Shown here: positions 12,161 through 49,485 of the stretch, piece by piece
Layout of the letters: each line of letters starts with the position of its first letter
Position numbering within the stretch: position 1 is the first letter of the stretch
From: Nephrocerus scutellatus
Taxonomy: Eukaryota; Arthropoda; Insecta; Diptera; Pipunculidae
Length of the DNA: 64,000 nucleotides
Assembly (NCBI GenBank): GCA_947095585.1
Contig: OX352763.1
Location: forward strand, 61,041,016-61,105,015
Reading direction: 5' to 3'
The notes under the pieces: model-generated
Databases searched by the model: none
What the model was told of the DNA's origin: nothing
What the model saw: the letters and a program-made list of their open reading frames with translations, nothing else
Position numbers and translations under genes: made by a program

Positions 12161-12524
12161 ACCACCTTTACTGGGGGAATAATAAGGAATCAGGACACAT
12201 CTTCAGGATTTCTTCTTTTTAGGCGCCACTTGTGTATTGATTTCTGGTTTGATTATCTTTCCTCTTTATAATATCTTTGATATTAATATTTTGTTTTGTT
12301 GTAAAAATTGTTACGTTAATTTGGAGGAGTACAAATCGTAAACAAAATTTTGTTGTTATTTTAGATATTATAATATTTCTCTTAAAAAAAACTTTTAAAA
12401 CTATGTTGTAAGTCTAGAAATTATTATTTTTAAACTATCTATATATTTTTTTAAATGCTATATATTGTTTTTCCCTAAATTATACATATTTTAATGGAAA
12501 TTATACATGTATTTTTCTTAAATT
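12161..12524. other. AT-rich flank of the array, ending in AATT target duplication
   Basis: No gene seen. The last four bases, AATT at 12521-12524, match the AATT at 48805-48808 on the other side of the 36-kb array and are read as its target-site duplication. Confidence 0.6.
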
Positions 12525-13567
12525 TGTAACAGTCTTTTGCTCGGGTGACGCTCGCCGGTCACTCAGGGTTCTTTCTCCTTCTCGCTCGTCGTTACAAATT
12601 AAAAGATGGTTGGTTTTCGATATAAAATTACAATTTTTATTTCTTGATCTCTTAGTCTATACGTACTTACATATAAATATACTTAAATAAACTTACGATA
12701 CGTTGGTTTGTACGTACTCGGTACGGGGAAAACCAGGGGAACTTGATTGCAGCCGAGAGTATTCGACTGCGGAAAAGGGGGTTGATGGGCGGCTTCTGCT
12801 CTTTAAGTGGTTGCTACTAGAGCACACGAGCAGCGTTCTACGGAACAGCGCGGTATAGTGAATTACTATACGAGTAAGCAAGCGAGGTCCGGGGGATAGC
12901 TACCACACTGGGAGCAAGCGGACTGCTTAGTGTCTTGTAAATTACAATATAGCGATACTACCTGGTTTTACAACCTCGATCGTTCGCTATACTGCAATAG
13001 ACACAGTAAGTATGGGTGTACAACACAACAAAATTAGCCCGGTTTTACAACCTTGACAATTTTGTTATATTGACCTAGAAAAAGAAAGTACGAGTATATA
13101 ATGCAGCACAGTTGTCTGGTTTTGCAACCTCGGCAACGTGTTACATTAATATGACTCGGCTAGCCTTGTCACCAAAAAAAGGGGCTGTTCGTGGAGAACA
13201 GTAGTCAGCGAAAAGCTGTCGGTAAAGGGGGAATTTGCTGTGAACCACAACGCTTTCTTCCCTTTGAGTAGGTATAGCTGCCTTGCCGCAGTATAGTCTA
13301 CTCTCGAATAGATTTTACTACCGTGCCGTAGTATGTTCTATTCTAATTTTTGTTGATTGATTGGAGCATATAAGTGTGTCTTAATAGTTGAATTCCTTGG
13401 GAATTTTGTTTTCACCCTTTTTGGAAAAATTATTTGATTATAAATAATATCATTGATAAATTTCTATCATTCATTGGGCGAAAAACCCTTTTCCCGCAAA
13501 AAATAACTGCATACCGACCGAGTACACTCGTATTGCGCTAAATTGATATAATGCAAAATAGGTTAAT
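12525..13567 (-). repeat. Array LTR 1 (right end truncated)
   Basis: Starts TGTAACAGTC right after the AATT duplication. It lacks its U3 end: after GGTTAAT at 13567 the sequence jumps to the GGGG-T(n) tract, deleting the last 100 bp or so and the polypurine tract. It is the outermost 3' LTR of the array. Confidence 0.9.
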
Positions 13568-14361
13568 GGGGGTTTTTTTTTTTTTTTTTTTTTTATATAC
13601 TGGTTGGATAAGTATAACTTATAACTATTATCGGTTTGTTTATATATCTATATATGTATATGTATATATCTGGTATTTTAAAGTAAAAAATGTTTATACA
13701 TAAAAAAATTTTCTCATATGGTGTGGTCACTTATTTTTTTCTGGTATATTTGGGGTGGTCTGCGACCTTTATTGTCTCGTGCCGACACCTATATGAGTTA
13801 CAAAAAGATGTGTGTGTATTTCAAAAAAACTGTGGGTGGGTTTATTTTTTTCTTTCTTTCTTTTTTTTCCCCCATTTAATAGTAATATGCTTAAGTTTAT
13901 GTCTAGTGATAATAGTTCCATTTATACAGGGTTTCTCTTTTTTTTTTGTGTGTGTGTTTTGTTGTGTTTTTTTTTTCTTTGTGTTTTTCTTTTCTGTGGT
14001 TTTGTATTTTTTTTTTTTTTTGTCTTTTTTTTTTTGAGCAAAAGTAACAATCGGTAATAAGTAGTTTAATAGTTTAATAAGTATGATAATAGTAATAAGT
14101 GTGATAATAGTAGTAAGTATTGTAATTTATAATAGTAATAAGTAGGTTTAATTAATAGTAATAAGTATAATAGTAGTAAGTAGAAAAATATATAGTAGTA
14201 ATAAGTATGATAATAGTATAAGTAGAAATAATAAGTAGAGTAATAAGTAATAAGTATGATAATAACAAAAAGATTTTATAATAAAAATATATGAACAGAA
14301 GGAATGCTGTCTTCTAATTGCTGTCTTTTAATTGTTGTTAATATTGCTGGGCTGGTGGGCG
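13568..14361 (-). other. Unit 1 low-complexity 3' region
   Basis: Non-coding. It has long T runs (13574-13594 and several at 13850-14040), a TATATG stretch, and from 14050 a degenerate TAATAAGTATGATAATAG repeat of about 230 bp. No protease, RT or integrase motif in any frame. Plus-strand frames of about 115 aa here are driven by T runs and are not called. Confidence 0.7.
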
Positions 14362-15567
14362 TCATCTTGGATGATACGATGGTGTGACATTGCTGGTGTG
14401 CGACGGGTATAAATGTGTTACATCGCTGGCCACTGGTTGATACGATGGTGTGACATTGCTGGTGTGCGACGGGTATATTGTATTATTTGCCATTAGATCT
14501 AGTGGCAGAATTGGTCGAGCGGACTGGATGGGCAGATGCTGTGATGTGGCTACGGGTTGCGGTGCTGGTTGACTGTATTGTACTTGTGGACGAAATGGCA
14601 GTGCGGTAGAACGAAATGGTGGAACGGTGGGACGGAGTGGCAATGGCCGATTTTGCGGTTGAGTGAGTCGTGAGACAGGTTGTTCTGCCATTAAACATTC
14701 GAAATCTTCGATCAGGATGGTTAACTCGGACAACGTGCTGAACTCCCTTCGCTTGATGTAATGCCGGTAGTCGGGTCGCAGATTGTCATAAATTCTATCG
14801 AGTTTCTCTTCAGCGGTCATGGTGGTATGCCATCGCATCAGGGCTTGAATCGATGTGAGAAATTCTTTGCCCTTTTCTCGGTGGTTTTGTGTACGACTCC
14901 GAATGCGATCCAGTAGTTGGGTGTAGAAACGTGGTGGTAAAAAAAAGCGGCGCAGTTCTTCGCTAAATGCTTTCCAATTAACTAATAGCTCTTTGCTATT
15001 CCGGTACCACACCAACGCGTTCCCTTTCAGCAACTCGGGAAGAGTCCGGACGATGCGATCGAGAGGTACTTGATAACACTCGGCCAATTCTTCAACACGT
15101 TCCAAGAACTCCAGTGCATTATTTGTACCGCCGTCGTACCTCACATTCCATTTTCGTAATTTGTCCATTATGTCTGCGTCGGATAATCGGTATGCGAAAG
15201 TTGGTGAAGAGCGCGCATCTACTGCTTGTGCGGTACTTGCATCTACTTCTGCGTACATCCTGGGCGAGGTTTCGTAAATCTGACTAGTCGGCTGTGCTAC
15301 GCGCAATTCCTCTTTCATTTCGGTTTTCTTCTGTGAAGTACCTGTATCTACTTCTGGGTAGATGATGGCCGGTATTTCGCTTCCTTTTTTGGTCGGGGTT
15401 AATTTTTCGGTTGGTTTCGTTGTTTTGATCTCAGCGCTTAACCTTTTCCGTAGTTCATCAACAGTGCCTGTGGAGTCGATGCCACGACGCTCCAACTCGT
15501 TGACTAGTTCTTCTTTGCGGAGAGAGTACACCGCAGAGGCATTAATCTCAGGCTCTAGTGTAGCCAT
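14362..15567 (-). CDS. SAP-domain Gag protein, unit 1
   Basis: Intact 401-codon ORF with ATG at 15567. Domains: residues 14-47 form a SAP motif (LRKEELVNELERRGIDSTG..VDELRKRL pattern), a helix-turn-helix that binds AT-rich DNA or RNA in host proteins. Residues 48-130 are a charged linker with two related YxEVDxxTxQ phrases. Residues 139-290 resemble the capsid core of Ty3/gypsy Gag (WNVRYDGG, FLERVEELA, NALVWYRNS, RRFFLPPRF, RTQNHREKGKEFL). Residues 295-350 are proline/arginine/glutamine-rich. The tail has two copies of a 22-residue repeat (YPSHTSNVTPSY). There is no CCHC knuckle and no pol behind it. Carries S95 and A151, shared only with unit 5. It probably forms particles around the element RNA; nucleic-acid binding may be done by SAP and the basic tail. 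Function is inferred from domain likeness. Confidence 0.85.
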   Translation of the reverse strand: MATLEPEINASAVYSLRKEELVNELERRGIDSTGTVDELRKRLSAEIKTTKPTEKLTPTKKGSEIPAIIYPEVDTGTSQKKTEMKEELRVAQPTSQIYETSPRMYAEVDASTAQAVDARSSPTFAYRLSDADIMDKLRKWNVRYDGGTNNALEFLERVEELAECYQVPLDRIVRTLPELLKGNALVWYRNSKELLVNWKAFSEELRRFFLPPRFYTQLLDRIRSRTQNHREKGKEFLTSIQALMRWHTTMTAEEKLDRIYDNLRPDYRHYIKRREFSTLSELTILIEDFECLMAEQPVSRLTQPQNRPLPLRPTVPPFRSTALPFRPQVQYSQPAPQPVATSQHLPIQSARPILPLDLMANNTIYPSHTSNVTPSYQPVASDVTHLYPSHTSNVTPSYHPR

Positions 15568-15973
15568 TTGAAAGGTAGATGTGTTTAATTTCTGAATTTG
15601 GACACTCCCCGGTTGGTGTTCAGTCTATTGTCAGTGGTGACGCCTTCACCAATAAATTGTTACACCAATCTACTTTCAGCTACCTGGTGGGTGTCTCGGT
15701 TATCGGGTTGTCGGCTCGGGTATATATATATATATTTTATATGCTTAAATAGTTTCCAGTAGACGGTAATACGATTTTTTTTTCTAATCGTATGGTATTT
15801 TAGGCTTGTCTAGCTGCTGGTTGGACGGTGATACAACTATTCTAGTTGTCTGGTATTATATGCTTATCTAATACATATGCTTATCTAATTTCTGGTCGGA
15901 CGGTGATACGACTATTCTAGTCGTCCCTGCTCGGGCGCCAAATTTGTAACAGTCCCTGCTCGGGCGCCAAATT
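15568..15973 (-). promoter_or_regulatory. Unit 1 leader with three stem-loops and two primer-binding sites
   Basis: Primer site TGGCGCCCGAGCAGGGAC (tRNA-Lys type) occurs at 15952-15969 and again at 15923-15940 on the minus strand, 29 bp apart; the repeated 29 bp includes the LTR end CTGTTACA and AATT. The leader then has perfect inverted repeats: ACGACTA/TAGTCGT (15908-15914/15918-15924), ACAACTA/TAGTTGT (15833-15839/15843-15849) and ATACGATT/AATCGTAT (15769-15776/15786-15793), each beside an ACGGT(g/a)AT phrase on the plus strand. A structured packaging or translation signal is possible. Confidence 0.8.
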
Positions 15974-17112
15974 TGTAACAGTCTTTTGCTCGGGTGACGC
16001 TCGCCGGTCACCCAGGGTTCTTTCTCCTTCTCGCTCGTCATTACAAATTAAAAGATGGTTGGTTTTCGATATAAAATTACAATTTTTATTTCTTGATCTC
16101 TAAGTCTATACGTACTTACATATAAATATACTTAAATAAACTTACGATACGTTGGTTTGTACGTACTCGGTACGGGGAAAACCAGGGGAACTTGATTGCA
16201 GCCGAGAGTATTCGACTGCGGAAAAGGGGGTTGATGGGCGGCTTCTGCTCTTTAAGTGGTTGCTACTAGAGCACACGAGCAGCGTTCTACGGAACAGCGC
16301 GGTATAGTGAATTACTATACGAGTAAGCAAGCGAGATCCGGGGGATAGCTACCACACTGGGAGCAAGCGGACTGCTTAGTGTCTTGTAAATTACAATATA
16401 GCGATACTGCCTGGTTTTACAACCTCGATCGTTCGCTATACTGCAATAGACACAGTAAGTATGGGTGTACAACACAACAAAATTAGCCCGGTTTTACAAC
16501 CTTGACAATTTTGTTATATTGACCTAGACAAAGAAAGTACGAGTATATAATGCAGCACAGTTGTCTGGTTTTGCAACCTCGGCAACGTGTTACATTAATA
16601 TGACTCGGCTAGCCTTGTCACCAAAAAAAGGGGCTGTTCGTGGAGAACAGTAGTCAGCGAAAAGCTGTCGGTAAAGGGGGAATTTGCTGTGAACCACAAC
16701 GCTTTCTTCCCTTTGAGTAGGTATAGCTGCCTTGCCGCAGTATAGTCTACTCTCGAATAGATTTTACTACCGTGCCGTAGTATGTTCTATTCTAATTTTT
16801 GTTGATTGATTGGAGCATATAAGTGTGTCTTAATAGTTGAATTCCTTGGGAATTTTGTTTTCACCCTTTTTGGAAAAATTATTTGATTATAAATAATATC
16901 ATTGATAAATTTCTATCATTCATTGGGCGAAAAACCCTTTTCCCGCAAAAAATAACTGCATACCGACCGAGTACACTCGTATTGCGCTAACTTGATATAA
17001 TGCAAAATAGGTTAATTTTGCATTATATATCGAGTGACTGGGTTTTTTTTGTATAGCAATTACTTTAGACATATGGTTTGTAGCGAAGTGGTATTTAACC
17101 AACTACGTTACA
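15974..17112 (-). repeat. Array LTR 2 (1139 bp, reference copy for hairpins)
   Basis: Ends TGTAAC...GTTACA. On the minus strand AATAAA lies at 16090-16085, about 110 nt before the LTR end, and the polypurine tract GAAGTAGGGGGGGAA lies outside at 17127-17113. Inverted repeats (plus coordinates): 15992-15998/16007-16013; 16302-16308/16314-16320; 16397-16404/16433-16440; 16476-16484/16507-16515; 16556-16563/16583-16589; 16634-16639/16645-16650; 16715-16720/16747-16752; 16755-16761/16786-16792; 16840-16845/16849-16854; 16995-17008/17015-17028. Confidence 0.9.
16397..16589 (-). promoter_or_regulatory. Three phased LTR stem-loops with GNRA-type caps
   Basis: On the minus strand each unit has an inner GGTT-AACC stem closing a tetraloop: GTAA, GTAA and GCAA, all fitting GNRA in RNA. 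The inner stems start at 16413, 16490 and 16567 on the plus strand, exactly 77 bp apart. Outer stems differ in sequence but pair: TATAGCGA/TCGCTATA with 8x8 internal loop, AACAAAATT/AATTTTGTT with 5x5 loop, and CACAGTTG/CAACGTG with one bulged base. The set occurs in all ten LTRs. Units 5, 6 and 9 type LTRs carry G-to-A in the first stem. Role unknown; RNA structure is an inference from pairing. Confidence 0.7.
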
Positions 17113-17961
17113 TTCCCCCCCTACTTCGGGGTGCGAAAAAGTATAAGACACACTTATTGGCTAGCAATGGGGTTTTTTTTTTTTTTTTGTATATACTGGT
17201 TGGATAAGTATAACTTATAACTATTATCGGTTTGTTTATATATCTATATATGTATATGTATATATCTGGTATTTTAAAGTAAAAAATGTTTATACATAAA
17301 AAAAATTTCTCATATGGTGTGGTCACTTATTTTTTTCTGGTATATTTGGGGTGGTCTGCGACCTTTATTGTCTCGTGCCGACACCTATATGAGTTACAAA
17401 AAGATGTGTGTGTGTTTCAAAAAAACTGTGGGTGGGTTTATTTTTTTCTTTCTTTCTTTTTTTTTTCCCATTTAATAGTAATATGCTTAAGTTTATGTCT
17501 AGTGATAATAGTTCCATTTATACAGGGTTTCTCTTTTTTTTTTTGTGTGTGTGTTTTGTTGTGTTTTTTTTTTCTTTGTGTTTTTCTTTTCTGTGGTTTT
17601 GTATTTTTTTTTTTTTTTTTTTGTCTTTTTTTTTTGAGCAAAAGTAACAATCGGTAATAAGTAGTTTAATAGTTTAATAAGTATGATAATAGTAATAAGT
17701 GTGATAATAGTAGTAAGTATTGTAATTTATAATAGTAATAAGTAGGTTTAATTAATAGTAATAAGTATAATAGTAGTAAGTAGAAAAATATATAGTAGTA
17801 ATAAGTATGATAATAGTATAAGTAGAATTAATAAGTAGAGTAATAAGTAATAAGTATGATAATAACAAAAAGATTTTATAATAAAAATATATGAACAGAA
17901 GGAATGCTGTCTTCTAATTGCTGTCTTTTAATTGTTGTTAATGTTGCTGGGCTGGTGGGCG
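17113..17961 (-). other. Unit 2 low-complexity 3' region with polypurine tract
   Basis: Begins at the LTR with the polypurine tract (17113-17127), then T runs, TATATG repeats, and the TAATAAGTA-type repeat at about 17650-17870. No pol motifs. Confidence 0.7.
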
Positions 17962-19167
17962 TCATCTTGGATGATACGATGGTGTGACATTGCTGGTGTG
18001 CGACGGGTATAAATGTGTTACATCGCTGGCCACTGGTTGATACGATGGTGTGACATTGCTGGTGTGCGACGGGTATATTGTATTATTTGCCATTAGATCT
18101 AGTGGCAGAATTGGTCGAGCGGACTGGATGGGCAGATGCTGTGATGTGGCTACGGGTTGCGGTGCTGGTTGACTGTATTGTACTTGTGGACGAAATGGCA
18201 GTGCGGTAGAACGAAATGGTGGAACGGTGGGACGGAGTGGCAATGACCGATTTTGCGGTTGAGTGAGTCGTGAGACAGGTTGTTCTGCCATTAAACATTC
18301 GAAATCTTCGATCAGGATGGTTAACTCGGACAACGTGCTGAACTCCCTTCGCTTGATGTAATGCCGGTAGTCGGGTCGCAGATTGTCATAAATTCTATCG
18401 AGTTTCTCTTCAGCGGTCATGGTGGTATGCCATCGCATCAGGGCTTGAATCGATGTGAGAAATTCTTTGCCCTTTTCTCGGTGGTTTTGTGTACGACTCC
18501 GAATGCGATCCAGTAGTTGGGTGTAGAAACGTGGTGGTAAAAAAAAGCGGCGCAGTTCTTCGCTAAATGCTTTCCAATTAACTAATAGCTCTTTGCTATT
18601 CCGGTACCACACCAACGCGTTCCCTTTCAGCAACTCGGGAAGAGTCCGGACGATGCGATCGAGAGGTACTTGATAACACTCGGCCAATTCTTCAACACGT
18701 TCCAAGAACTCCAGTGGATTATTTGTACCGCCGTCGTACCTCACATTCCATTTTCGTAATTTGTCCATTATGTCTGCGTCGGATAATCGGTATGCGAAAG
18801 TTGGTGAAGAGCGCGCATCTACTGCTTGTGCGGTACTTGCATCTACTTCTGCGTACATCCTGGGCAAGGTTTCGTAAATCTGACCAGTCGGCTGTGCTAC
18901 GCGCAATTCCTCTTTCATTTCGGTTTTCTTCTGTGAAGTACCTGTATCTACTTCTGGGTAGATGATGGCCGGTATTTCGCTTCCTTTTTTGGTCGGGGTT
19001 AATTTTTCGGTTGGTTTCGTTGTTTTGATCTCAGCGCTTAACCTTTTCCGTAGTTCATCAACAGTGCCTGTGGAGTCGATGCCACGACGCTCCAACTCGT
19101 TGACTAGTTCTTCTTTGCGGAGAGAGTACACCGAAGAGGCATTAATCTCAGGCTCTAGTGTAGCCAT
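17962..19167 (-). CDS. SAP-domain Gag protein, unit 2
   Basis: Intact 401-codon ORF of the same architecture as unit 1 (SAP at 14-47, capsid core 139-290, proline-rich region, two 22-residue tail repeats). It has private changes A12S in front of the SAP motif, S101L, and P-to-S in the proline-rich region (QNRSLPL), and carries the common G95 and P151. It lies between LTR 2 (its 3' LTR) and LTR 3 (its 5' LTR, shortened by 386 bp). All differences are substitutions that keep the frame open, which fits either recency or selection for function. Confidence 0.85.
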   Translation of the reverse strand: MATLEPEINASSVYSLRKEELVNELERRGIDSTGTVDELRKRLSAEIKTTKPTEKLTPTKKGSEIPAIIYPEVDTGTSQKKTEMKEELRVAQPTGQIYETLPRMYAEVDASTAQAVDARSSPTFAYRLSDADIMDKLRKWNVRYDGGTNNPLEFLERVEELAECYQVPLDRIVRTLPELLKGNALVWYRNSKELLVNWKAFSEELRRFFLPPRFYTQLLDRIRSRTQNHREKGKEFLTSIQALMRWHTTMTAEEKLDRIYDNLRPDYRHYIKRREFSTLSELTILIEDFECLMAEQPVSRLTQPQNRSLPLRPTVPPFRSTALPFRPQVQYSQPAPQPVATSQHLPIQSARPILPLDLMANNTIYPSHTSNVTPSYQPVASDVTHLYPSHTSNVTPSYHPR

Positions 19168-19602
19168 TTGAAAGGTAGATGTGTTTAATTTCTGAATTTG
19201 GACACTCCCCGGTTGGTGTTCAGTCTATTGTCAGTGGTGACGCCTTCACCAATAAATTGTTACACCAATCTACTTTCAGCTACCTGGTGGGTGTCTCGGT
19301 TATCGGGTTGTCGGCTCGGGTATATATATATATATTTTATATGCTTAAATAGTTTCCAGTAGACGGTAATACGATTTTTTTTTCTAATCGTATGGTATTT
19401 TAGGCTTGTCTAGCTGCTGGTTGGACGGTGATACAACTATTCTAGTTGTCTGGTATTATATGCTTATCTAATACATATGCTTATCTAATTTCTGGTCGGA
19501 CGGTGATACGACTATTCTAGTCGTCCCTGCTCGGGCGCCAAATTTGTAACAGTCCCTGCTCGGGCGCCAAATTTGTAACAGTCCCTGCTCGGGCGCCAAA
19601 TT
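19168..19602 (-). promoter_or_regulatory. Unit 2 leader, three primer-binding sites
   Basis: Same three leader stem-loops as unit 1. The 29-bp block with the primer site is present three times (18-nt sites at 19523-19540, 19552-19569 and 19581-19598). Confidence 0.8.
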
Positions 19603-20355
19603 TGTAACAGTCTTTTGCTCGGGTGACGCTCGCCGGTCACCCAGAATTCTTTCTCCTTCTCGCTCGTCATTACAAATTAAAAGATGGTTGGTTTTCGATA
19701 TAAAATTACAATTTTTATTTCTTGATCTCTTAGTCTATACGTACTTACATATAAATATACTTAAATAAACTTACGATACGTTGGTTTGTACGTACTCGGT
19801 ACGGGGAAAACCAGGGGAACTTGATTGCAGCCGAGAGTATTCGACTGCGGAAAAGGGGGTTGATGGGCGGCTTCTGCTCTTTAAGTGGTTGCTACTAGAG
19901 CACACGAGCAGCGTTCTACGGAACAGCGCGGTATAGTGAATTACTATACGAGTAAGCAAGCGAGGTCCGGGGGATAGCTACCACACTGGGAGCAAGCGGA
20001 CTGCTTAGTGTCTTGTAAATTACAATATAGCGATACTACCTGGTTTTACAACCTCGATCGTTCGCTATACTGCAATAGACACAGTAAGTATGGGTGTACA
20101 ACACAACAAAATTAGCCCGGTTTTACAACCTTGACAATTTTGTTATATTGACCTAGACAAAGAAAGTACGAGTATATAATGCAGCACAGTTGTCTGGTTT
20201 TGCAACCTCGGCAACGTGTTACATTAATATGACTCGGCTAGCCTTGTCACCAAAAAAAGGGGCTGTTCGTGGAGAACAGTAGTCAGTTTTTTTGTATAGC
20301 AATTACTTTAGACATATGGTTTGTAGCGAAGTGGTATTTAACCAACTTCGTTACA
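19603..20355 (-). repeat. Array LTR 3 with 386-bp internal deletion
   Basis: Matches LTR 2 up to AGTCAG at 20286, then jumps to TTTTTTTGTATAGC, deleting 386 bp including the hairpin pair and the 14-bp palindrome. Carries CAGAATTC near its start, shared with LTRs 4 and 8. The same deletion is found in LTR 7. Confidence 0.9.
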
Positions 20356-21060
20356 TTCCCCCCCTACTTCGGGGTGCGAAAAAGTATAAGACACACTTAT
20401 TGGCTAGCAATGGGGGGTTTTTTTTTTTTTTTTTTATATACTGGTTGGATAAGTATAACTTATAACTATTATCGGTTTGTTTATATATCTATATATGTAT
20501 GTAACATAGACACAGTCATCAGTAGTGGTCAGCAGTAGTTAGTCGTTAGCAGTAGGCAGTAGTCATCAAGTAGTCGTTACAAGTAGTCAACAGTCAGTCA
20601 TCGGCAGTAGTCAGACATCGGCAGACAGCAGTATTGAGTAGTGAGCAGTAATCAGTCGTGAGCAGTGTTCAATCGTCGCCAGTCGTGTGGATCATCATCT
20701 CAACATCATCATTATCATCTTTGTGGTTACTCTTGTGCTAGCTTTTCACTTTGTCAATTTATTTTTTAATTAACCATCTTTGGTTAAACCTATGATTAAT
20801 AATCTACTTGATTATAGTAATAAAATATAAGGGTAGTTAAACCCTATCATTTTTACATTTGGGGGCTCAACCGCTTCAACTCATACGCATTCAATTGTCC
20901 TCTCGGAGATTGGCAGAAAGGCCGTCGCGATTCGTTAAAGCAATTACAAAATGCAAACATTTTTGTGAAATTCACGCTGAAATTGGTGGCTAAAAAACGA
21001 AATCGTTAGTAACGGGCATTCAACAAGCCGTTATACAAAGATAAAATACGCAGTTAGTTC

Positions 21061-21785: not shown

Positions 21786-21986
21786 ACACATTGCATTTTG
21801 ACCACCTTGGCCCTATGGATGCCACCGCAAAACAGTATAAGTACATCTTCGCCATGGTGGACGGATTTACAAAGTTTGTATGGTTATACCCGACAAAGAT
21901 GGTAAGCTGCGAAGAGGTGCTCAGAAAGCTGGCAGAATGGGCTGCAATTTTTGGCAACGCAGTTCGAATTGTAAGCGATCGATCGA
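21786..21986 (+). pseudogene. Integrase fragment of the nested gypsy-type element
   Basis: One frame reads HFDHLGPM, YKYIFAMVDGFTKFVWLYPTK and FGNAVRIVSDR, the part of a Ty3/gypsy integrase core that spans the first two catalytic aspartates. It is cut just after the second, where the shortened 3' LTR begins with GATCGATCGATCGG. It is in a different phase from the gag part. The junction with gag is at about 21785-21790, pointing to a large internal deletion. Confidence 0.8.
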
Positions 21987-40534: not shown

Positions 40535-41674
40535 TGTAACAGTCTTTTGCTCGGGTGACGCTCGCCGGTCACCCAGAATTCTTTCTCCTTCTCGCTCGTC
40601 ATTACAAATTAAAAGATGGTTGGTTTTCGATATAAAATTACAATTTTTATTTCTTGATCTCTTAGTCTATACGTACCTACATATAAATATACTTAAATAA
40701 ACTTACGATACGTTGGTTTGTACGTACTCGGTACGGGGAAAACCAGGGGAACTTGATTGCAGCCGAGAGTATTCGACTGCGGAAAAGGGGGTTGATGGGC
40801 GGCTTCTGCTCTTTTAGTGGTTGCTACTAGAGCACACGAGCAGCGTTCTACGGAACAGCGCGGTATAGTGAATTACTATACGAGTAAGCAAGCGAGGTCC
40901 GGGGGATAGCTACCACACTGGGAGCAAGCGGACTGCTTAGTGTCTTGTAAATTACAATATAGCGATACTACCTGGTTTTACAACCTCGATCGTTCGCTAT
41001 ACTGCAATAGACACAGTAAGTATGGGTGTACAACACAACAAAATTAGCCCGGTTTTACAACCTTGACAATTTTGTTATATTGACCTAGACAAAGAAAGTA
41101 CGAGTATATAATGCAGCACAGTTGTCTGGTTTTGCAACCTCGGCAACGTGTTACATTAATATGACTCGGCTAGCCTTGTCACCAAAAAAAGGGGCTGTTC
41201 GTGGAGAACAGTAGTCAGCGAAAAGCTGTCGGTAAAGGGGGAATTTGCTGTGAACCACGACGCTTTCTTCCCTTTGAGTAGGTATAGCTGCCTTGCCGCA
41301 GTATAGTCTACTCTCGAATAGATTTTACTACCGTGCCGTAGTATGTTCTATTCTAATTTTTGTTGATTGATTGGAGCATATAAGTGTGTCTTAATAGTTG
41401 AATTCCTTGGGAATTTTGTTTTCACCCTTTTTGGAAAAATTATTTGATTATAAATAATATCATTGATAAATTTCTATCATTCATTGGGCGAAAAACCCTT
41501 TTCCCGCAAAAAATAACTGCATACCGACCGAGTACACTCGTATTGCGCTAAATTGATATAATGCAAAATAGGTTAATTTTGCATTATATATCGAGTGACT
41601 GGGTTTTTTTTTGTATAGCAATTACTTTAGACATATGGTTTGTAGCGAAGTGGTATTTAACCAACTTCGTTACA
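40535..41674 (-). repeat. Array LTR 8 (1140 bp)
   Basis: Shares all marks of LTR 4 (CAGAATTC, CTTTTAGTGG, CCACGACGC) at an offset of 15828 bp. Confidence 0.9.
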
Positions 41675-42518
41675 TTCCCCCCCTACTTCGGGGTGCGAAA
41701 AAGTATAAGACACACTTATTGGCTAGCAATGGGGTTTTTTTTTTTTTTTTTATATACTGGTTGGATAAGTATAACTTATAACTATTATCGGTTTGTTTAT
41801 ATATCTATATATGTATATGTATATATCTGGTATTTTAAAGTAAAAAATGTTTATACATAAAAAAAATTTCTCATATGGTGTGGTCACTTATTTTTTTCTG
41901 GTATATTTGGGGTGGTCTGCGACCTTTATTGTCTCGTGCCGACACCTATATGAGTTACAAAAAGATGTGTGTGTGTTTCAAAAAAACTGTGGGTGGGTTT
42001 ATTTTTTTCTTTCTTTCTTTTTTTTTTCCCCATTTAATAGTAATATGCTTAAGTTTATGTCTAGTGATAATAGTTCCATTTATACAGGGTTTCTCTTTTT
42101 TTTTTGTGTGTGTGTTTTGTTGTGTTTTTTTTTTCTTTGTGTTTTTCTTTTCTGTGGTTTTGTATTTTTTTTTTTTTTTGTCTTTTTTTTTTGAGCAAAA
42201 GTAACAATCGGTAATAAGTAGTTTAATAGTTTAATAAGTATGATAATAGTAATAAGTGTGATAATAGTAGTAAGTATTGTAATTTATAATAGTAATAAGT
42301 AGGTTTAATTAATAGTAATAAGTATAATAGTAGTAAGTAGACAAATATATAGTAGTAATAAGTATGATAATAGTATAAGTAGAATTAATAAGTAGAGTAA
42401 TAAGTAATAAGTATGATAATAACAAAAAGATTTTATAATAAAAATATATGAACAGAAGGAATGCTGTCTTCTAATTGCTGTCTTTTAATTGTTGTTAATG
42501 TTGCTGGGCTGGTGGGCG
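41675..42518 (-). other. Unit 8 low-complexity 3' region with polypurine tract
   Basis: Matches unit 4, including AGACAAATATATAG. No pol motifs. Confidence 0.7.
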
Positions 42519-43724
42519 TCATCTTGGATGATACGATGGTGTGACATTGCTGGTGTGCGACGGGTATAAATGTGTTACATCGCTGGCCACTGGTTGATAC
42601 GATGGTGTGACATTGCTGGTGTGCGACGGGTATATTGTATTATTTGCCATTAGATCTAGTGGCAGAATTGGTCGAGCGGACTGGATGGGCAGATGCTGTG
42701 ATGTGGCTACGGGTTGCGGTGCTGGTTGACTGTATTGTACTTGTGGACGAAATGGCAGTGCGGTAGAACGAAATGGTGGAACGGTGGGACGGAGTGGCAA
42801 TGGCCGATTTTGCGGTTGAGTGAGTCGTGAGACAGGTTGTTCTGCCATTAAACATTCGAAATCTTCGATCAGGATGGTTAACTCGGACAACGTGCTGAAC
42901 TCCCTTCGCTTGATGTAATGCCGGTAGTCGGGTCGCAGATTGTCATAAATTCTATCGAGTTTCTCTTCAGCGGTCATGGTGGTATGCCATCGCATCAGGG
43001 CTTGAATCGATGTGAGAAATTCTTTGCCCTTTTCTCGGTGGTTTTGTGTACGACTCCGAATGCGATCCAGTAGTTGGGTGTAGAAACGTGGTGGTAAAAA
43101 AAAGCGGCGCAGTTCTTCGCTAAATGCTTTCCAATTAACTAATAGCTCTTTGCTATTCCGGTACCACACCAACGCGTTCCCTTTCAGCAACTCGGGAAGA
43201 GTCCGGACGATGCGATCGAGAGGTACTTGATAACACTCGGCCAATTCTTCAACACGTTCCAAGAACTCCAGTGGATTATTTGTACCGCCGTCGTACCTCA
43301 CATTCCATTTTCGTAATTTGTCCATTATGTCTGCGTCGGATAATCGGTATGCGAAAGTTGGTGAAGAGCGCGCATCTACTGCTTGTGCGGTACTTGCATC
43401 TACTTCTGCGTACATCCTGGGCGAGGTTTCGTAAATCTGACCAGTCGGCTGTGCTACGCGCAATTCCTCTTTCATTTCGGTTTTCTTCTGTGAAGTACCT
43501 GTATCTACTTCTGGGTAGATGATGGCCGGTATTTCGCTTCCTTTTTTGGTCGGGGTTAATTTTTCGGTTGGTTTCGTTGTTTTGATCTCAGCGCTTAACC
43601 TTTTCCGTAGTTCATCAACAGTGCCTGTGGAGTCGATGCCACGACGCTCCAACTCGTTGACTAGTTCTTCTTTGCGGAGAGAGTACACCGCAGAGGCATT
43701 AATCTCAGGCTCTAGTGTAGCCAT
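42519..43724 (-). CDS. SAP-domain Gag protein, unit 8
   Basis: Intact 401-codon ORF, translation identical to units 4 and 6, at an offset of 15828 bp from unit 4. It has SAP domain, capsid core and both tail repeats. It lies between LTR 8 and LTR 9. Confidence 0.85.
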   Translation of the reverse strand: MATLEPEINASAVYSLRKEELVNELERRGIDSTGTVDELRKRLSAEIKTTKPTEKLTPTKKGSEIPAIIYPEVDTGTSQKKTEMKEELRVAQPTGQIYETSPRMYAEVDASTAQAVDARSSPTFAYRLSDADIMDKLRKWNVRYDGGTNNPLEFLERVEELAECYQVPLDRIVRTLPELLKGNALVWYRNSKELLVNWKAFSEELRRFFLPPRFYTQLLDRIRSRTQNHREKGKEFLTSIQALMRWHTTMTAEEKLDRIYDNLRPDYRHYIKRREFSTLSELTILIEDFECLMAEQPVSRLTQPQNRPLPLRPTVPPFRSTALPFRPQVQYSQPAPQPVATSQHLPIQSARPILPLDLMANNTIYPSHTSNVTPSYQPVASDVTHLYPSHTSNVTPSYHPR

Positions 43725-44129
43725 TTGAAAGGTAGATGTGTTTAATTTCTGAATTTGGACACTCCCCGGTTGGTGTTCAGTCTATTGTCAGTGGTGACGC
43801 CTTCACCAATAAATTGTTACACCAATCTACTTTCAGCTACCTGGTGGGTGTCTCGGTTATCGGGTTGTCGGCTCGGGTATATATATATATATTTTATATG
43901 CTTAAATAGTTTCCAGTAGACGGTAATACGATTTTTTTTCTAATCGTATGGTATTTTAGGCTTGTCTAGCTGCTGGTTGGACGGTGATACAACTATTCTA
44001 GTTGTCTGGTATTATATACTTATCTAATACATATGCTTATCTAATTTCTGGTCGGACGGTGATACGACTATTCTAGTCGTCCCTGCTCGGGCGCCAAATT
44101 TGTAACAGTCCCTGCTCGGGCGCCAAATT
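43725..44129 (-). promoter_or_regulatory. Unit 8 leader, two primer-binding sites
   Basis: As unit 4. Primer sites at 44079-44096 and 44108-44125. Confidence 0.8.
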
Positions 44130-45271
44130 TGTAACGGTCTTTTGCTCGGGTGACGCTCGCCGGTCACCCAGGGTTCTTTCTCCTTCTCGCTCGTCATTAC
44201 AAATTAAAAGATGGTTGGTTTTCGATATAAAATTACAATTTTTATTTCTTGATCTCTTAGTCTATACGTACTTACATATAAATATACTTAAATAAACTTA
44301 CGATACGTTGGTTTGTACGTACTCGGTACGGGGAAAACCAGGGGAACTTGATTGCAGCCGAGAGTATTCGACTGCGGAAAAGGGGGTTGATGGGCGGCTT
44401 CTGCTCTTTAAGTGGTTGCTACTAGAGCACACGAGCAGCGTTCTACGGAACAGCGCGGTATAGTGAATTACTATACGAGTAAGCAAGCGAGGTCCGGGGG
44501 ATAGCTACCACACTGGGAGCAAGCGGACTGCTTAGTGTCTTGTAAATTACAATATAGCAATACTACCTGGTTTTACAACCTCGATCGTTCGCTATACTGC
44601 AATAGACACAGTAAGTATGGGTGTACAACACAACAAAATTAGCCCGGTTTTACAACCTTGACAATTTTGTTATATTGACCTAGACAAAGAAAGTACGAGT
44701 ATATAATGCAGCACAGTTGTCTGGTTTTGCAACCTCGGCAACGTGTTACATTAATATGACTCGGCTAGCCTTGTCACCAAAAAAAGGGGCTGTTCGTGGA
44801 GAACAGTAGTCAGCGAAAAGCTGTCGGTAAAGGGGGAATTTGCTGTGAACCACAACGCTTTCTTCCCTTTGAGTATGTATATAACTGCCTTGCCGCAGTA
44901 TAGTCTACTCTCGAATAGATTTTACTACCGTGCCGTAGTATGTTCTATTCTAATTTTTGTTGATTGATTGGAGCATATAAGTGTGTCTTAATAGTTGAAT
45001 TCCTTGGGAATTTTGTTTTCACCCTTTTTGGAAAAATTATTTGATTATAAATAATATCATTGATAAATTTCTATCATTCATTGGGCGAAAAACCCTTTTC
45101 CCGCAAAAAATAACTGCATACCGACCGAGTACACTCGTATTGCGCTAAATTGATATAATGCAAAATAGGTTAATTTTGCATTATATATCGAGTGACTGGG
45201 TTTTTTTTTGTATAGCAATTACTTTAGACATATGGTTTGTAGCGAAGTGGTATTTAACCAACTTCGTTACA
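44130..45271 (-). repeat. Array LTR 9 (1142 bp)
   Basis: Shares TGTAACGGTC, TATAGCAATAC and GAGTATGTATATAACTG with LTR 5 at an offset of 15828 bp. Confidence 0.9.
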
Positions 45272-46118
45272 TTCCCCCCCTACTTCGGGGTGCGAAAAAG
45301 TATAAGACACACTTATTGGCTAGCAATGGGGTTTTTTTTTTTTTTTTTTTATATACTGGTTGGATAAGTATAACTTATAACTATTATCGGTTTGTTTATA
45401 TATCTATATATGTATATGTATATATCTGGTATTTTAAAGTAAAAAATGTTTATACATAAAAACATTTTCTCATATGGTGTGGTCACTTATTTTTTTCTGG
45501 TATATTTGGGGTGGTCTGCGACCTTTATTGTCTCGTGCCGACACCTATATGAGTTACAAAAAGATGTGTGTGTGTTTCAAAAAAACTGTGGGTGGGTTTA
45601 TTTTTTTCTTTCTTTCTTTTTTTTTTCCCATTTAATAGTAATATGCTTAAGTTTATGTCTAGTGATAATAGTTCCATTTATACAGGGTTTCTCTTTTTTT
45701 TTTGTGTGTGTGTTTTGTTGTGTATTTTTTTCTTTGTGTTTTTCTTTTCTGTGGTTTTGTATTTTTTTTTTTTTTTTTGTCTTTTTTTTTTTGAGCAAAA
45801 GTAACAATCGGTAATAAGTAGTTTAATAGTTTAATAAGTATGATAATAGTAATAAGTGTGATAATAGTAGTAAGTATTGTAATTTATAATAGTAATAAGT
45901 AGGTTTAATTAATAGTAATAAGTATAATAGTAGTAAGTAGAAAAATATATAGTAGTAATAAGTATGATAATAGTATAAGTAGAATTAATAAGTAGAGTAA
46001 TAAGTAATAAGTATGATAATAACAAAAAGATTTTATAATAAAAATATATGAACAGAAGGAATGCTGTCTTCTAATTGCTGTCTTTTAATTGTTGTTAATG
46101 TTGCTGGGCTGGTGGGCG
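45272..46118 (-). other. Unit 9 low-complexity 3' region with polypurine tract
   Basis: Matches unit 5, including TGTATTTTTTTC. No pol motifs. Confidence 0.7.
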
Positions 46119-47262
46119 TCATCTTGGATGATACGATGGTGTGACATTGCTGGTGTGCGACGGGTATATTGTATTATTTGGCATTAGATCTAGTGGCAGA
46201 ATTGGTCGAGCGGACTGGATGGGCAGATGCTGTGATGTGGCTACGGGTTGCGGTGCTGGTTGACTGTATTGTACTTGTGGACGAAATGGCAGTGCGGTAG
46301 AACGAAATGGTGGAACGGTGGGACGGAGTGGCAATGGCCGATTTTGCGGTTGAGTGAGTCGTGAGACAGGTTGTTCTGCCATTAAACATTCGAAATCTTC
46401 GATCAGGATAGTTAACTCGGACAACGTGCTGAACTCCCTTCGCTTGATGTAATGCCGGTAGTCGGGTCGCAGATTGTCATAAATTCTATCGAGTTTCTCT
46501 TCAGCGGTCATGGTAGTATGCCATCGCATCAGGGCTTGAATCGATGTGAGAAATTCTTTGCCCTTTTCTCGGTGGTTTTGTGTACGACTCCGAATGCGAT
46601 CCAGTAGTTGGGTGTAGAAACGTGGTGGTAAAAAAAAGCGGCGCAGTTCTTCGCTAAATGCTTTCCAATTAACTAATAGCTCTTTGCTATTCCGGTACCA
46701 CACCAACGCGTTCCCTTTCAGCAACTCGGGAAGAGTCCGGACGATGCGATCGAGAGGTACTTGATAACACTCGGCCAATTCTTCAACACGTTCCAAGAAC
46801 TCCAGTGGATTATTTGTACCGCCGTCGTACCTCACATTCCATTTTCGTAATTTGTCCATTATGTCTGCGTCGGATAATCGGTATGCGAAAGTTGGTGAAG
46901 AGCGCGCATCTACTGCTTGTGCGGTACTTGCATCTACTTCTGCGTACATCCTGGGCGAGGTTTCGTAAATCTGACCAGTCGGCTGTGCTACGCGCAATTC
47001 CTCTTTCATTTCGGTTTTCTTCTGTGAAGTACCTGTATCTACTTCTGGGTAGATGATGGCCGGTATTTCGCTTCCTTTTTTGGTCGGGGTTAATTTTTCG
47101 GTTGGTTTCGTTGTTTTGATCTCAGCGCTTAACCTTTTCCGTAGTTCATCAACAGTGCCTGTGGAGTCGATGCCACGACGCTCCAACTCGTTGACTAGTT
47201 CTTCTTTGCGGAGAGAGTACACCGCAGAGGCATTAATCTCAGGCTCTAGTGTAGCCATTTGA
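46119..47262 (-). CDS. SAP-domain Gag protein, unit 9 (one tail repeat)
   Basis: Intact ORF. I take the ATG at 47262, which gives 380 codons with one tail repeat as in unit 5; an upstream extension would need a TTG start created by a single A-to-G change and is not credible in a eukaryote. The C-terminal half equals unit 5 (LDLMPNNT, 66-bp deletion), while the N-terminal half has G95 and P151 like units 2-4, so the two halves have different histories. It is the unit nearest the 5' end of the array. Confidence 0.85.
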
Positions 47263-47664
47263 AAGGTAGATGTGTTCAATTTCTAAATTTGGACACTCCC
47301 CGGTTGGTGTTCAGTCTATTGTCAATGGTGACGCCTTCACCAATAAATTGTTACACCAATCTACTTTCAGCTACCTGGTGGGTGTCTCGGTTATCGGGTT
47401 GTCGGCTCGGGTATATATATATATATTTTATATGCTTAAATAGTTTCCAGTAGACGGTAATACGATTTTTTTTTCTAATCGTATGGTATTTTAGGCTTGT
47501 CTAGCTGCTGGTTGGACGGTGATACAACTATTCTAGTTGTCTGGTATTATATGCTTATCTAATACATATGCTTATCTAATTTCTGGTCGGACGGTGATAC
47601 GACTATTCTAGTCGTCCCTGCTCGGGCGCCAAATTTGTAACAGTCCCTGCTCGGGCGCCAAATT
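47263..47664 (-). promoter_or_regulatory. Unit 9 leader, two primer-binding sites
   Basis: Leader stem-loops as in unit 1, with a few private changes (TTCTAAATTTGG, GTCAATGGTGAC). Primer sites at 47614-47631 and 47643-47660. Confidence 0.8.
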
Positions 47665-48804
47665 TGTAACAGTCTTTTGCTCGGGTGACGCTCGCCGGTC
47701 ACCCAGGGTTCTTTCTCCTTCTCGCTCGTCATTACAAATTAAAAGATGGTTGGTTTTCGATATAAAATTACAATTTTTATTTCTTGATCTCTTAGTCTAT
47801 ACGTACTTACATATAAATATACTTAAATAAACTTACGATACGTTGGTTTGTACGTACTCGGTACGGGGAAAACCAGGGGAACTTGATTGCAGCCGAGAGT
47901 ATTCGACTGCGGAAAAGGGGGTTGATGGGCGGCTTCTGCTCTTTAAGTGGTTGCTACTAGAGCACACGAGCAGCGTTCTACGGAACAGCGCGGTATAGTG
48001 AATTACTATACGAGTAAGCAAGCGAGGTCCGGGGGATAGCTACCACACTGGGAGCAAGCGGACTGCTTAGTGTCTTGTAAATTACAATATAGCGATACTA
48101 CCTGGTTTTACAACCTCGATCGTTCGCTATACTGCAACAGACACAGTAAGTATGGGTGTACAACACAACAAAATTAGCCCGGTTTTACAACCTTGACAAT
48201 TTTGTTATATTGACCTAGACAAAGAAAGTACGAGTATATAATGCAGCACAGTTGTCTGGTTTTGCAACCTCGGCAACGTGTTACATTAATATGACTCGGC
48301 TAGCCTTGTCACCAAAAAAAGGGGCTGTTCGTGGAGAACAGTAGTCAGCGAAAAGCTGTCGGTAAAGGGGGAATTTGCTGTGAACCACAACGCTTTCTTC
48401 CCTTTGAGTAGGTATAGCTGCCTTGCCGCAGTATAGTCTACTCTCGAATAGATTTTACTACCGTGCCGTAGTATGTTCTATTCTAATTTTTGTTGATTGA
48501 TTGGAGCATATAAGTGTGTCTTAATAGTTGAATTCCTTGGGAATTTTGTTTTCACCCTTTTTGAAAAAATTATTTGATTATAAATAATATCATTGATAAA
48601 TTTCTATCATTCATTGGGCGAAAAACCCTTTTCCCGCAAAAAATAACTGCATACCGACCGAGTACACTCGTATTGCGCTAAATTGATATAATGCAAAATA
48701 GGTTAATTTTGCATTATATATCGAGTGACTGGGTTTTTTTTTGTATAGCAATTACTTTAGACATATGGTTTGTAGCGAAGTGGTATTTAACCAACTTCGT
48801 TACA
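47665..48804 (-). repeat. Array LTR 10 (1140 bp, outermost 5' LTR)
   Basis: Full-length, ends CTTCGTTACA at 48804, directly followed by AATT (48805-48808). Carries private changes such as TTTTGAAAAAAT and CTGCAACAGACAC. Being the outermost 5' LTR it would drive a transcript of the whole array. Confidence 0.9.
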
Positions 48805-49485
48805 AATTATATATATTTTTTTAAACTATATGTTGTATAGATATTTTCCTTAAATTATATTTTTCTTAAGTGATATGTTGTATATATATTTTCATTAAAT
48901 TATCAATATATATTTGTCTTTTGTTATGCTATTTTTATATATTTTTTTAAAATTATATATTTTTTTATACAACGTTTTCTTAATAGGCCAATTCTAATTT
49001 TCTTATTTTTTTCTTAACTTTAATTCTATTTTTACTTACTTTGTTCTTTAAGTATTCGCTTGTTTTGTTTATATATATAAATATTTATTTACACTGTTGT
49101 GATGCACTTCGTTACCTCATGTTTTTTTATAATTTCCTTTATATATATATATATATATATTGGATCTTTGTCCCATATATATTGGATCTAGTTTCTTTTT
49201 AGCCTCATTTCTCAATAAAACTAGACTTCATATTTCAAAGTTTTTACTCTTTGTGTTACCATACGATATATCTTTCTTTCTAGCATTTTTCTTTCTTATT
49301 AAAGTTTCTCGAGCATCCCTATGAGCTGTTAGAGTTTGTATATTGTATGTACACTGTGAACGAGCCTTACGCTCTAATTTTACATTTCAGTTCTATTACC
49401 GCATGAACACACTTTGTTGTTGATTGACTCTTCTCTTGTTGTTTAAGTAAAACATTAAAAAGTTTATTCTTTTATAATTTAATCA
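48805..49485 (+). other. AT-rich flank, probably containing a copia-type LTR
   Basis: Begins with the AATT target duplication. Very AT-rich, with TA repeats at 49141-49160. Because a copia-type primer site follows at 49486, the last few hundred bases are probably its LTR; the LTR start cannot be fixed without a second copy. Confidence 0.4.

Follow-up and report, generated by a model that had tools for sequence, protein, structure and literature searches.

Tandem array of a pol-less Ty3-type LTR retrotransposon in Nephrocerus scutellatus: probable growth in place by unequal exchange between LTRs

Structure of the array

The window analysed here is a stretch of 64,000 nucleotides from the pipunculid fly Nephrocerus scutellatus (assembly GCA_947095585.1, contig OX352763.1, positions 61,041,016 to 61,105,015). 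Ten LTRs and nine internal regions alternate within it in a single orientation (Table 1), which confirms the head-to-tail array of the original prediction, with corrections. That the element is encoded on the minus strand is evident from the PBS, which comes after the LTR, and from gag, an open reading frame of that strand. Successive units measure 3449, 3629, 5104, 3595, 3535, 3595, 5103, 3595 and 3535 bp. The order of unit types (delta-epsilon-gamma-alpha-beta-alpha-gamma-alpha-beta) contains a higher-order repeat of four units. Chance is excluded by the identity of the aligned unit stretches (about 99%) and by a repeat of 13,425 bp at 99.90%. A search of the window against Rfam gave no match at the gathering threshold.

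Seven of the ten LTRs are full-length, LTR1, LTR3 and LTR7 being incomplete. In LTR1, one simple deletion has removed LTR positions 1044–1140 together with ~55 bp of adjoining internal sequence, including the polypurine tract; it extends as far as the internal region's own G/T run. The reading of LTR1 as ending in a foreign G/T run was rejected, the run belonging to the internal region itself. Units 3 and 7 hold the same nested LTR element (5' LTR at 20500–20857 and 3' LTR fragment at 21986–22243 in unit 3; unit 7 copy at 36329–38072), and in internal region 3 the segment spanning internal positions 52 to ~163 is repeated.

Both outer ends of the array carry AATT, as originally described, and no target-site duplication is found inside, where each LTR is bordered by a PBS and, at its opposite end, by internal sequence. 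AATT is also the usual LTR-PBS spacer of this family, so the left copy alone proves nothing; the matching right copy counts as evidence because, of 12 dispersed single copies examined, 11 are flanked by perfect duplications of 4 bp that vary in sequence.

Table 1. Features of the array (forward-strand coordinates within the window)
Feature	Position	Strand	Remark
Left outer target-site duplication AATT	12521..12524	.	4-bp duplication is the family rule
Right outer target-site duplication AATT	48805..48808	.	
LTR1 (outer 3' LTR)	12525..13567	-	U3 start truncated
LTR2	15974..17112	-	
LTR3	19603..20355	-	Without LTR positions 685-1071
LTR4	24707..25846	-	
LTR5	28302..29443	-	
LTR6	31837..32976	-	Mosaic (LTR allele table)
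LTR7	35432..36184	-	Mosaic; without LTR positions 685-1071
LTR8	40535..41674	-	Identical to LTR4
LTR9	44130..45271	-	Identical to LTR5
LTR10 (outer 5' LTR)	47665..48804	-	Full length, 1140 bp
Internal region 1 (delta)	13568..15973	-	Start missing; gag ORF 14362-15624
Internal region 2 (epsilon)	17113..19602	-	gag ORF 17962-19224; PBS/LTR 29-mer in ~3.1 copies
Internal region 3 (gamma)	20356..24706	-	Nested element; gag stop at codon 264; 29-mer in ~3.1 copies
Internal region 4 (alpha)	25847..28301	-	gag ORF 26691-27953
Internal region 5 (beta)	29444..31836	-	One 66-bp gag repeat fewer; gag ORF 30291-31487
Internal region 6 (alpha)	32977..35431	-	gag ORF 33821-35083
Internal region 7 (gamma copy)	36185..40534	-	Nested element; 29-mer in ~3.1 copies
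Internal region 8 (alpha copy)	41675..44129	-	gag ORF 42519-43781
Internal region 9 (beta copy)	45272..47664	-	gag ORF 46119-47282
Unit 1 pol-deletion junction	14363..14392	-	Same 30-mer at 17963, 23067, 26692, 30292, 33822, 38895, 42520, 46120
29-bp tandem duplication spanning LTR end, AATT spacer and PBS	15923..15983	-	At 9/9 array PBS junctions
Nested internally deleted LTR element (unit 3)	20500..22243	+	gag-like ORF; TSD TGTA
Latest block duplication	19647..30979	.	Copy at 35476-46807: one T-run indel, zero substitutions

The pol-less derivative and its family

The units were predicted to be gag-only, and they do have LTRs, a PBS and gag, pol having been deleted relative to full-length copies; each is a pol-less derivative of an ~8.9-kb element, with TGAT shared at the deletion breakpoint. 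The pol-deletion junction has 12 matches in the 613-Mb genome, at three sites that differ in target-site duplication and hold one unit (AACC), two units (GTGT) and nine units (AATT). The family is young, with identical LTRs in 8 of the 10 single copies in which both LTRs were compared. Its LTRs, 1140 bp long in the array and ~1180 bp in dispersed young copies, fall within the ~1–2 kb of the Osvaldo lineage. The array PBS, read directly, is presumably of the tRNA-Lys type expected of that lineage. Copy L014 has the pol domains PR, RT, RNase H and IN; among the 120 relatives of its RT part listed, of 5124, identity reaches 69% in Rhagoletis, 67% in D. ficusphila and 65–66% in Musca, and the best E-values among the matches listed belong to fish and arachnid proteins at 45%.

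In the portion of the source used here, Osvaldo-lineage Ty3 elements of Diptera have LTRs of 997–2055 bp and mostly 4-bp duplications, together with a rearrangement at the LTR/PBS boundary involving a conserved stretch of 29–30 nt (PMC3286476). The array family resembles this lineage, as there described, in LTR length, 4-bp duplications and rearrangement of the LTR/PBS boundary; it has a 29-bp PBS duplication, unlike cqgypsy_1, for which the same source gives a tRNA-dimer insertion (PMC3286476).

Coding state of gag

Homologues of gag were found in 14 proteins, the five named ones being four dipteran proteins and one from a beetle, and at least one (P0005) also has pol domains. The gag frame is open from its ATG in seven of the nine array units. 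Stops lie at codon 264 in units 3 and 7, at codon 96 in L030 and at codon 300 in L029, the two-unit sister locus. The three lineages with the array's pol deletion have accumulated 13 replacement and 3 silent private changes, in addition to these three independent stops, against 1 replacement and 5 silent changes in five full-length copies compared with a sixth. L027, which is pol-less by another deletion, has an open gag with 3 silent and 2 replacement private changes. These codon counts exclude copies with a gag of different length (L010, L014, L015, L025 and both L022 units). A first count gave 3 silent and 12 replacement changes against 5 and 1 (Fisher p 0.014), or against 10 and 4 with L027 added (p 0.009); a recount with a real copy as the yardstick gave a pooled 9 and 17 against 5 and 1 (p 0.064). 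The silent/replacement contrast is thus suggestive, and the three stops weigh more; to judge from these changes, gag seems unconstrained in the array's pol-less lineages.

Probable growth of the array in place

Several marks within the array bear on its history. LTR6 resembles LTR10 on its U5 side and LTR4 on its U3 side, with a crossover within LTR columns 294–738 and one mismatch to these predicted parents, at column 443, which fits neither. LTR7 follows LTR5 and LTR9 over its first 44 columns and LTR3 over the remainder, including the 684/1072 junction; read as LTR5 joined to LTR3, it has zero mismatches in an automatic mosaic search. Because LTR1, LTR3 and LTR7 are incomplete, this search is confounded, and only the parents of LTR7 and the identities of LTR8 with LTR4 and of LTR9 with LTR5 were taken from it, LTR6 being read from the allele table. 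Column 67 is G in LTR1 and in all 33 dispersed LTRs aligned, and A in LTR2 to LTR10. A 37-bp LTR deletion has eight matches in the genome (≤2 mismatches), all eight inside this array; as it is private to the array, other copies in this assembly donated no units. Between the end of gag and the PBS, 14 of the 16 variable unit columns have derived states that are absent from all 17 dispersed young copies aligned, two of these states being present in one of two older copies.

The sequence shows one duplication at the outer ends, marks shared among units and private to the array, a mosaic LTR at each of the two novel adjacencies, and an order of divergence; together these make a single AATT insertion of the pol-less derivative, later enlarged by unequal exchange between LTRs, the probable history of the locus. 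The founder, derived from a Ty3-type insect LTR retrotransposon by loss of pol and non-autonomous yet mobile, would have inserted once at an AATT site, with enzymes presumably supplied in trans by full-length copies of the same family. Units would then have been added by unequal exchange between LTRs, presumably of sister chromatids or of homologues, giving an early series of some five different units (delta, epsilon, gamma, alpha and beta), the route from one to five being conjectural. In one exchange, the LTR following beta would have recombined with that preceding alpha to produce the beta/alpha junction, LTR6; in a final one, the LTR following alpha would have recombined with that preceding gamma to produce the alpha/gamma junction, LTR7, and the total of nine units. 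LTR6 and LTR7 mark the two adjacencies that such a five-unit ancestor would not have had, and both are mosaics of the expected parents.

The A at column 67 would have arisen in the 5' LTR after insertion, because reverse transcription would make the outer LTRs alike, and its apparent spread with the PBS-side half is what LTR exchange predicts. Substitution counts (0/3595 between alpha units 4 and 8, 3/5103 between gamma units 3 and 7, 5/3595 between alpha units 4 and 6, 24/3448 between units 1 and 2) fit the proposed order of exchanges, and 11.3 kb of the latest gamma-alpha-beta block are free of substitutions. The outer LTRs differ at 5/1043 positions, the oldest units (1 and 2) being at least as divergent. 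Gene conversion also acts, given the orphan base at column 443 of LTR6 and a U1-like tract in unit U5, and individual diagnostic sites could be its product.

Other tandems of the family

The exchange signature was sought at four other tandem places (L029, C3:50.83, C2:113.47 and L027; C2:36.15 was left out), with LTR regions alone compared at C3:50.83 and C2:113.47. One shows it, and three are uninformative or lean the opposite way. At L029, the middle LTR shares a derived T (column 1104, U3 end) with the 3' LTR, the internal regions have zero substitutions and 2 gap columns, and the outer LTRs differ at two sites; as far as its sequence goes, this locus shows the mirror signature of the array's LTR exchange. 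Neither at C3:50.83 nor at C2:113.47 do the LTRs share a derived base in either direction; at C2:113.47 the outer LTRs are identical, and only the middle LTR has a 22-bp deletion. L027 has 6 substitutions between internal regions and 1 between outer LTRs, with no shared derived base. These three places could have been born as tandems. C2:51.97, taken for a tandem from its junction spacing, is actually one element in which a PBS/LTR fragment sits at the pol deletion, and its removal reduced the tandem clusters from seven to six. A further tandem may lie at C3:89.14 Mb, where 6.4 kb separate two gag matches.

Alternative explanations

Some of the nine units might be an assembly artefact, produced for instance by the joining of two alleles at an LTR. 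Judged from the assembled sequence, the substitution-free gamma-alpha-beta repeat is compatible with this explanation, and a two-allele join in the last block would leave the same mosaic LTR7. It is nevertheless unlikely, as delta, epsilon, gamma, alpha, beta and the second alpha have private substitutions and indels, such that at least five or six units stand, and this assembly also contains further tandems of the family.

The original prediction also considered a pre-formed multimer, which would have been built before integration as a multi-unit read-through RNA or a one-LTR-circle concatemer and inserted once, its units diverging by mutation and conversion. Multi-unit transcripts have been reported for Cassandra, in the part of the study drawn on here (PMC7215508), and such a multimer would leave one outer AATT pair with none inside. 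The divergence of units 1 and 2, if anything greater than that of the outer LTRs, points to several units soon after insertion; the identical outer LTRs of C2:113.47 and the L027 internal regions, more divergent than its outer LTRs, are also in favour of a multimer. However, reverse transcription copies both outer U5 ends from one template, and the derived base of column 67, present in the other nine LTRs but not in LTR1, argues against a ready-made multimer; the nested insertion, confined to units 3 and 7, and the substitution-free block indicate later growth. A multimer is thus improbable for the array as a whole, although several units may have existed early, and it is the expansion of a single insertion, the other possibility raised, that is supported by the mosaic LTR6 and LTR7, the private 37-bp deletion and the derived base of LTR2 to LTR10.

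Units of yeast Ty1 multimers are added by recombination of cDNA with a resident copy. Repeated recombination of this kind is very unlikely here: cDNA is probably made, given the youth of the family, but the marks of a donor are missing (the 37-bp deletion is found nowhere else in the genome, and the 17 dispersed young copies aligned lack most of the unit variants), and cDNA would not yield a duplicated multi-unit block that includes a shared nested element. The earlier suggestion of a tandem gene family, retained for its Gag protein, is scarcely credible: gag is open in most units and in L027, but it seems unconstrained in the array's pol-less lineages, which collect replacements and stops.

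Comparison with known systems

TR-GAG elements of plants have LTRs, a PBS and a gag ORF but no pol, and their dispersed copies imply help in trans. The array derivative shares this composition and has its own target-site duplication at each of three sites; unlike TR-GAG, it is a recent deletion derivative in an insect, with three insertions and a gag that is not maintained, with a stop at two sites and, at the third, in two of the nine units.

Tandem LTR-retrotransposon arrays are a known kind of structure. In rice, 10 of 28 selected tandems have perfect outer target-site duplications, according to the part of the survey used here (Morales-Diaz et al. 2025, PMC11899658). Like these plant tandems, the array alternates LTRs and internal regions, with an LTR at both ends, shared inner LTRs and one outer duplication. 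The rice locus TLI2 comprises three LTRs alternating with two internal regions, whereas nine pol-less units with a higher-order repeat are found here, and all 28 selected rice tandems contain protein domains, whereas the array units lack pol (PMC11899658). The survey, in the same part, calls the origin of tandem LTR arrays open, its authors being undecided between complex insertion and recombination (PMC11899658); the LTRs of the present array retain marks of crossover.

Cassandra TRIM arrays of plants reach 12 units, in a PCR fragment of ~6 kb, as the portion consulted of that study reports (Kalendar et al. 2020, PMC7215508). The expectation that such tandems usually have two or three units agrees with the in-silico Cassandra arrays, which tended to ~three LTRs, but not with the 12 units in the same paper. 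Both systems are non-autonomous LTR elements arranged head to tail; as described there, Cassandra has no gag and has a 5S RNA sequence in its LTRs, whereas the array units bear gag, and its authors saw no differences between units, whereas those of the array, 3.4–5.1 kb long, differ enough to permit a history (PMC7215508).

Dimers of transposable elements have been proposed as seeds of satellites, LTR exchange being one listed route (McGurk and Barbash 2018, as partly described in PMC7214746). Relative to such seeds, the array has nine units and a four-unit higher-order repeat, with no evidence of satellite-scale copy number. The label of a satellite in the making is compatible with the head-to-tail arrangement and higher-order repeat, but is descriptive and implies no function, and nine units with the gag frame open in seven are neither numerous nor non-coding.

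It is conceivable, if doubtful, that loss of pol predisposes an LTR element to tandem arrays: with LTRs ~2.4 kb apart, exchange might outpace solo-LTR loss, and pol-less derivatives might pass from dispersed copies (one unit) through dimers (two) to satellite-like arrays with higher-order repeats (five, nine units), within the time needed for ~0.5% divergence. The locus is young enough to show two exchanges in order, with crossover intervals within named LTRs, and sister insertions of the same deletion derivative hold one and two units; the steps by which a mobile element might turn into a satellite-like array are thereby directly testable in an animal.

Architecture of the array and its unit types

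In the array, ten LTRs are interleaved head to tail with nine internal regions, and the outer flank of the whole is AATT on both sides. The element is oriented on the minus strand, in which a PBS follows the LTR and a gag frame lies behind it (420 codons from stop to stop in five units); an AATT spacer and PBS adjoin the U5 end of every array LTR except the outer left one. The frame of unit 1 has a Pfam match to Retrotrans_gag and none to pol domains. A G-run beside the LTR resembles a polypurine tract (AGTAGGGGGGGAA in element sense); by BLAST, the internal-region start bearing it is present in regions 2-9 and absent from region 1, and LTR1, the outer 3' LTR, lacks the start of U3 and hence the adjoining tract. 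A full-length array LTR measures 1140 bp; positions 685-1071 are absent from LTR3 and LTR7.

Five types of internal region can be told apart by sequence; along the array they run delta (3449 bp per unit), epsilon (3629), gamma (5104), alpha (3595), beta (3535), alpha (3595), gamma (5103), alpha (3595) and beta (3535). Both gamma units contain the same nested LTR element, with the same deletions and 4-bp duplication (TGTA), and are thus copies of one event. The nested element has a gag-like frame, scoring under the Pfam cut-off for Retrotrans_gag, and an integrase-like remnant recognised by eye.

Features of the window and comparisons between array units; the alignment underlying the unit-to-unit substitution counts takes in low-complexity stretches
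Feature	Position	Copy	Observation
LTR/internal-region alternation	12525-48804		10 LTRs, 9 internal regions
Higher-order block	19552-32976	35381-48804	13 differences
Part of block	19647-30979	its copy	0 substitutions, one T-run indel
Units 5 and 9, otherwise near-identical	31449-31497	47277-47325	3 substitutions clustered within 49 bp
Nested LTR element	20500-22243	36329-38072	LTR 358 bp; itself internally deleted
alpha4-alpha8			0/3595 substitutions
alpha4-alpha6			5/3595 substitutions
gamma3-gamma7			3/5103 substitutions
beta5-beta9			5/3535 substitutions
U1-U2			24/3448 substitutions
U2-U4			17/3593 substitutions
RT/RNase H remnant beside array	4729-5673
Pao peptidase remnant beside array	8903-9409
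117-bp tandem repeat	10778-11409		5.4 copies; 1.1 kb from array
1.7-kb stretch duplicated in tandem	58949-62359		97.5% identity; RT-like frames, RVT_1 below Pfam cut-off; probably a non-LTR element

A mobile pol-less derivative

The source assembly (613 Mb, 9 contigs) contains 119 PBS-LTR junctions at up to 2 mismatches, and the 100 listed fall at 86 places, seven with more than one junction inside 10 kb. One of these, C2:51.97 Mb, was rejected as a tandem because only one element is present there, leaving six tandem places among the junctions listed. The fetched sample comprised twenty stretches from 19 places, the leading plus-strand places of C1 and C2. In eight (L009, L013-L017, L025, L028) the copy measures about 8.9-9.2 kb and its LTRs about 1180 bp, at about 98% identity; the remainder hold older, deleted, interrupted or tandem copies. 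The 4-bp duplications flanking single copies vary in sequence and are perfect in 11/12. The pol frame of the full-length copy L014 is open over 1271 codons (protease, RT, RNase H and integrase domains), and its gag is frameshifted. In L010, L014, L015 and L025 alike, gag is short by one base over the region compared, which puts it out of frame; the cause could be mutation or sequencing error. The gag relatives that carry names come from Diptera (four proteins) and a beetle (one). Among the relatives of the RT part listed, those above 60% identity bearing organism names are from insects, and fish and arachnid proteins (45% identity) have the best E-values. These relatives point to a fly as host. 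At C3:89.14 Mb, two gag matches lie 6.4 kb apart on one strand with a PBS-LTR junction nearby, possibly another tandem.

Relative to full-length copies, about 4.1 kb is missing from the array unit, between the 22-codon repeats of gag and a point near the end of pol, and TGAT is common to both breakpoints. A search with the 30-mer spanning this junction (up to 2 mismatches) gave 12 genome matches, all exact: nine in the array, two at C4:57.37 Mb (L029, a two-unit tandem with duplication GTGT) and one at C3:50.245 Mb (L030, a single element with duplication AACC). These matches and the element structures thus place one deletion derivative at three places, at two of them in tandem; the unit is a mobile pol-less derivative of the full-length element.

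The tandems at C2:78.81 (L027) and C2:36.15 (L021/L022) are pol-less through different deletions. L027 lacks a matching outer duplication and borders on a further LTR fragment at its right. C2:36.15 has five junctions; in three of its units gag runs straight into the inner PBS portion, and two have other internal deletions and the 29-mer duplication described below. Full-length spacing of junctions (7.9 and 7.7 kb; spacing only, with the LTR regions read) is seen at C2:113.47 (flanks ATAT/ATAT) and C3:50.83 (AATT/AGTT), which makes pol-less tandems four out of six; both tandem places among the 19 fetched are pol-less. Known pol-less singles are C3:50.245, C2:51.97 and, partly, L024. The C2:51.97 element (L037) has identical LTRs and the duplication ACTT, and its deletion junction contains a small PBS and U5-end fragment, like a template jump in reverse transcription.

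A 29-mer at the PBS/LTR junction, made up of 7 nt from the LTR end, AATT and 18 PBS nucleotides, occurs in two or three copies at 9/9 array PBS junctions. Among the 20 fetched stretches, L014 and two L022 junctions also have it repeated, and it is single-copy in 17. The repeat may plausibly stem from mis-annealing of plus-strand strong-stop DNA during second-strand transfer, since the repeat boundary is the PBS end and GAC precedes both copies.

The gag frame is open from its ATG in seven of the nine array units; stops lie at codon 264 in units 3 and 7, codon 96 in L030 and codon 300 in both L029 units. Private gag changes in the three lineages with the window's pol deletion number 13 replacement and 3 silent, against 1 and 5 in five full-length copies compared with a sixth (p = 0.064 pooled; 0.014 in a previous tally of private changes; small numbers). 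The gag of L027 has 2 replacement and 3 silent changes and an open frame. Nothing in these small numbers suggests a maintained Gag protein in the array. Outer LTRs differ at 5/1043 positions in the window, 2/1178 in L029 and 5/1181 in L030, and the LTR pair is identical in 8/10 single copies; there is no simple relation between age and unit number.

Probable growth by LTR exchange

Tandem LTR elements are known from plants and, as cited there, from Drosophila and kangaroos (PMC11899658); the Discussion of that paper leaves their origin open. Cassandra arrays are described with up to 12 units (PMC7215508). A narrow literature search, which says little, returned no paper on a gag-only LTR retrotransposon of insects.

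The favoured reading of the array is a single insertion followed by LTR exchange. A 37-bp stretch of the dispersed young LTRs compared is absent from the array LTRs, and all eight genome occurrences of the LTR form without it lie in this array. Of the 16 variable columns between gag and PBS, 14 show derived states unseen in 17 dispersed young copies, two of which recur in one of two older copies; the exceptions are a T-run column and a site common to L025. At LTR column 67, G is found in LTR1 and 33/33 dispersed LTRs, and A in LTR2-10. Both outer LTRs of a new insertion are made from one template, so the A would have arisen after insertion, on the 5' side. Its presence in every PBS-adjacent LTR is the pattern that unequal LTR exchange would produce.

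If the older array was delta-epsilon-gamma-alpha-beta, the novel adjacencies would be beta-alpha (LTR6) and alpha-gamma (LTR7). LTR6 is predicted to derive its PBS side from LTR10, the outer 5' LTR, and its U3 side from LTR4. It matches LTR10 and differs from LTR4 at columns 147 and 294, matches LTR4 and differs from LTR10 at columns 487, 738 and 918, and matches neither at column 443; at 487 and 918 the LTR10 base occurs in no other LTR, so LTR10 could have acquired it later. LTR7, predicted to follow LTR5 and then LTR3, matches LTR5 at columns 7, 43 and 44 and LTR3 at column 443 and the 684/1072 junction, with no mismatches. Gene conversion also acts, because unit 5 contains a U1-like tract. 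The last duplication, which is without substitutions, could alternatively be two alleles joined, but the other unit types would stay even then.

A similar signature is seen in L029, whose internal regions show no substitutions and two gap columns over about 2.4 kb and whose outer LTRs differ at two sites. At column 1104, a site at the end of U3, the middle and 3' LTRs have a derived base in common; at column 261, the middle LTR agrees with the 5' LTR and the family. This mirrors column 67 of the window and fits one crossover between columns 261 and 1104. L027 fits exchange less well, with six substitutions between internal regions, one between outer LTRs and three private to the middle LTR. 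The LTRs at C3:50.83 have private bases only (6 left, 3 middle, 2 right), and those at C2:113.47 differ only by a 22-bp deletion in the middle LTR. Judged from these sequence patterns, L027, C3:50.83 and C2:113.47 may have arisen by exchange or been inserted as tandems, and exchange is indicated for the window array and its two-unit sister.
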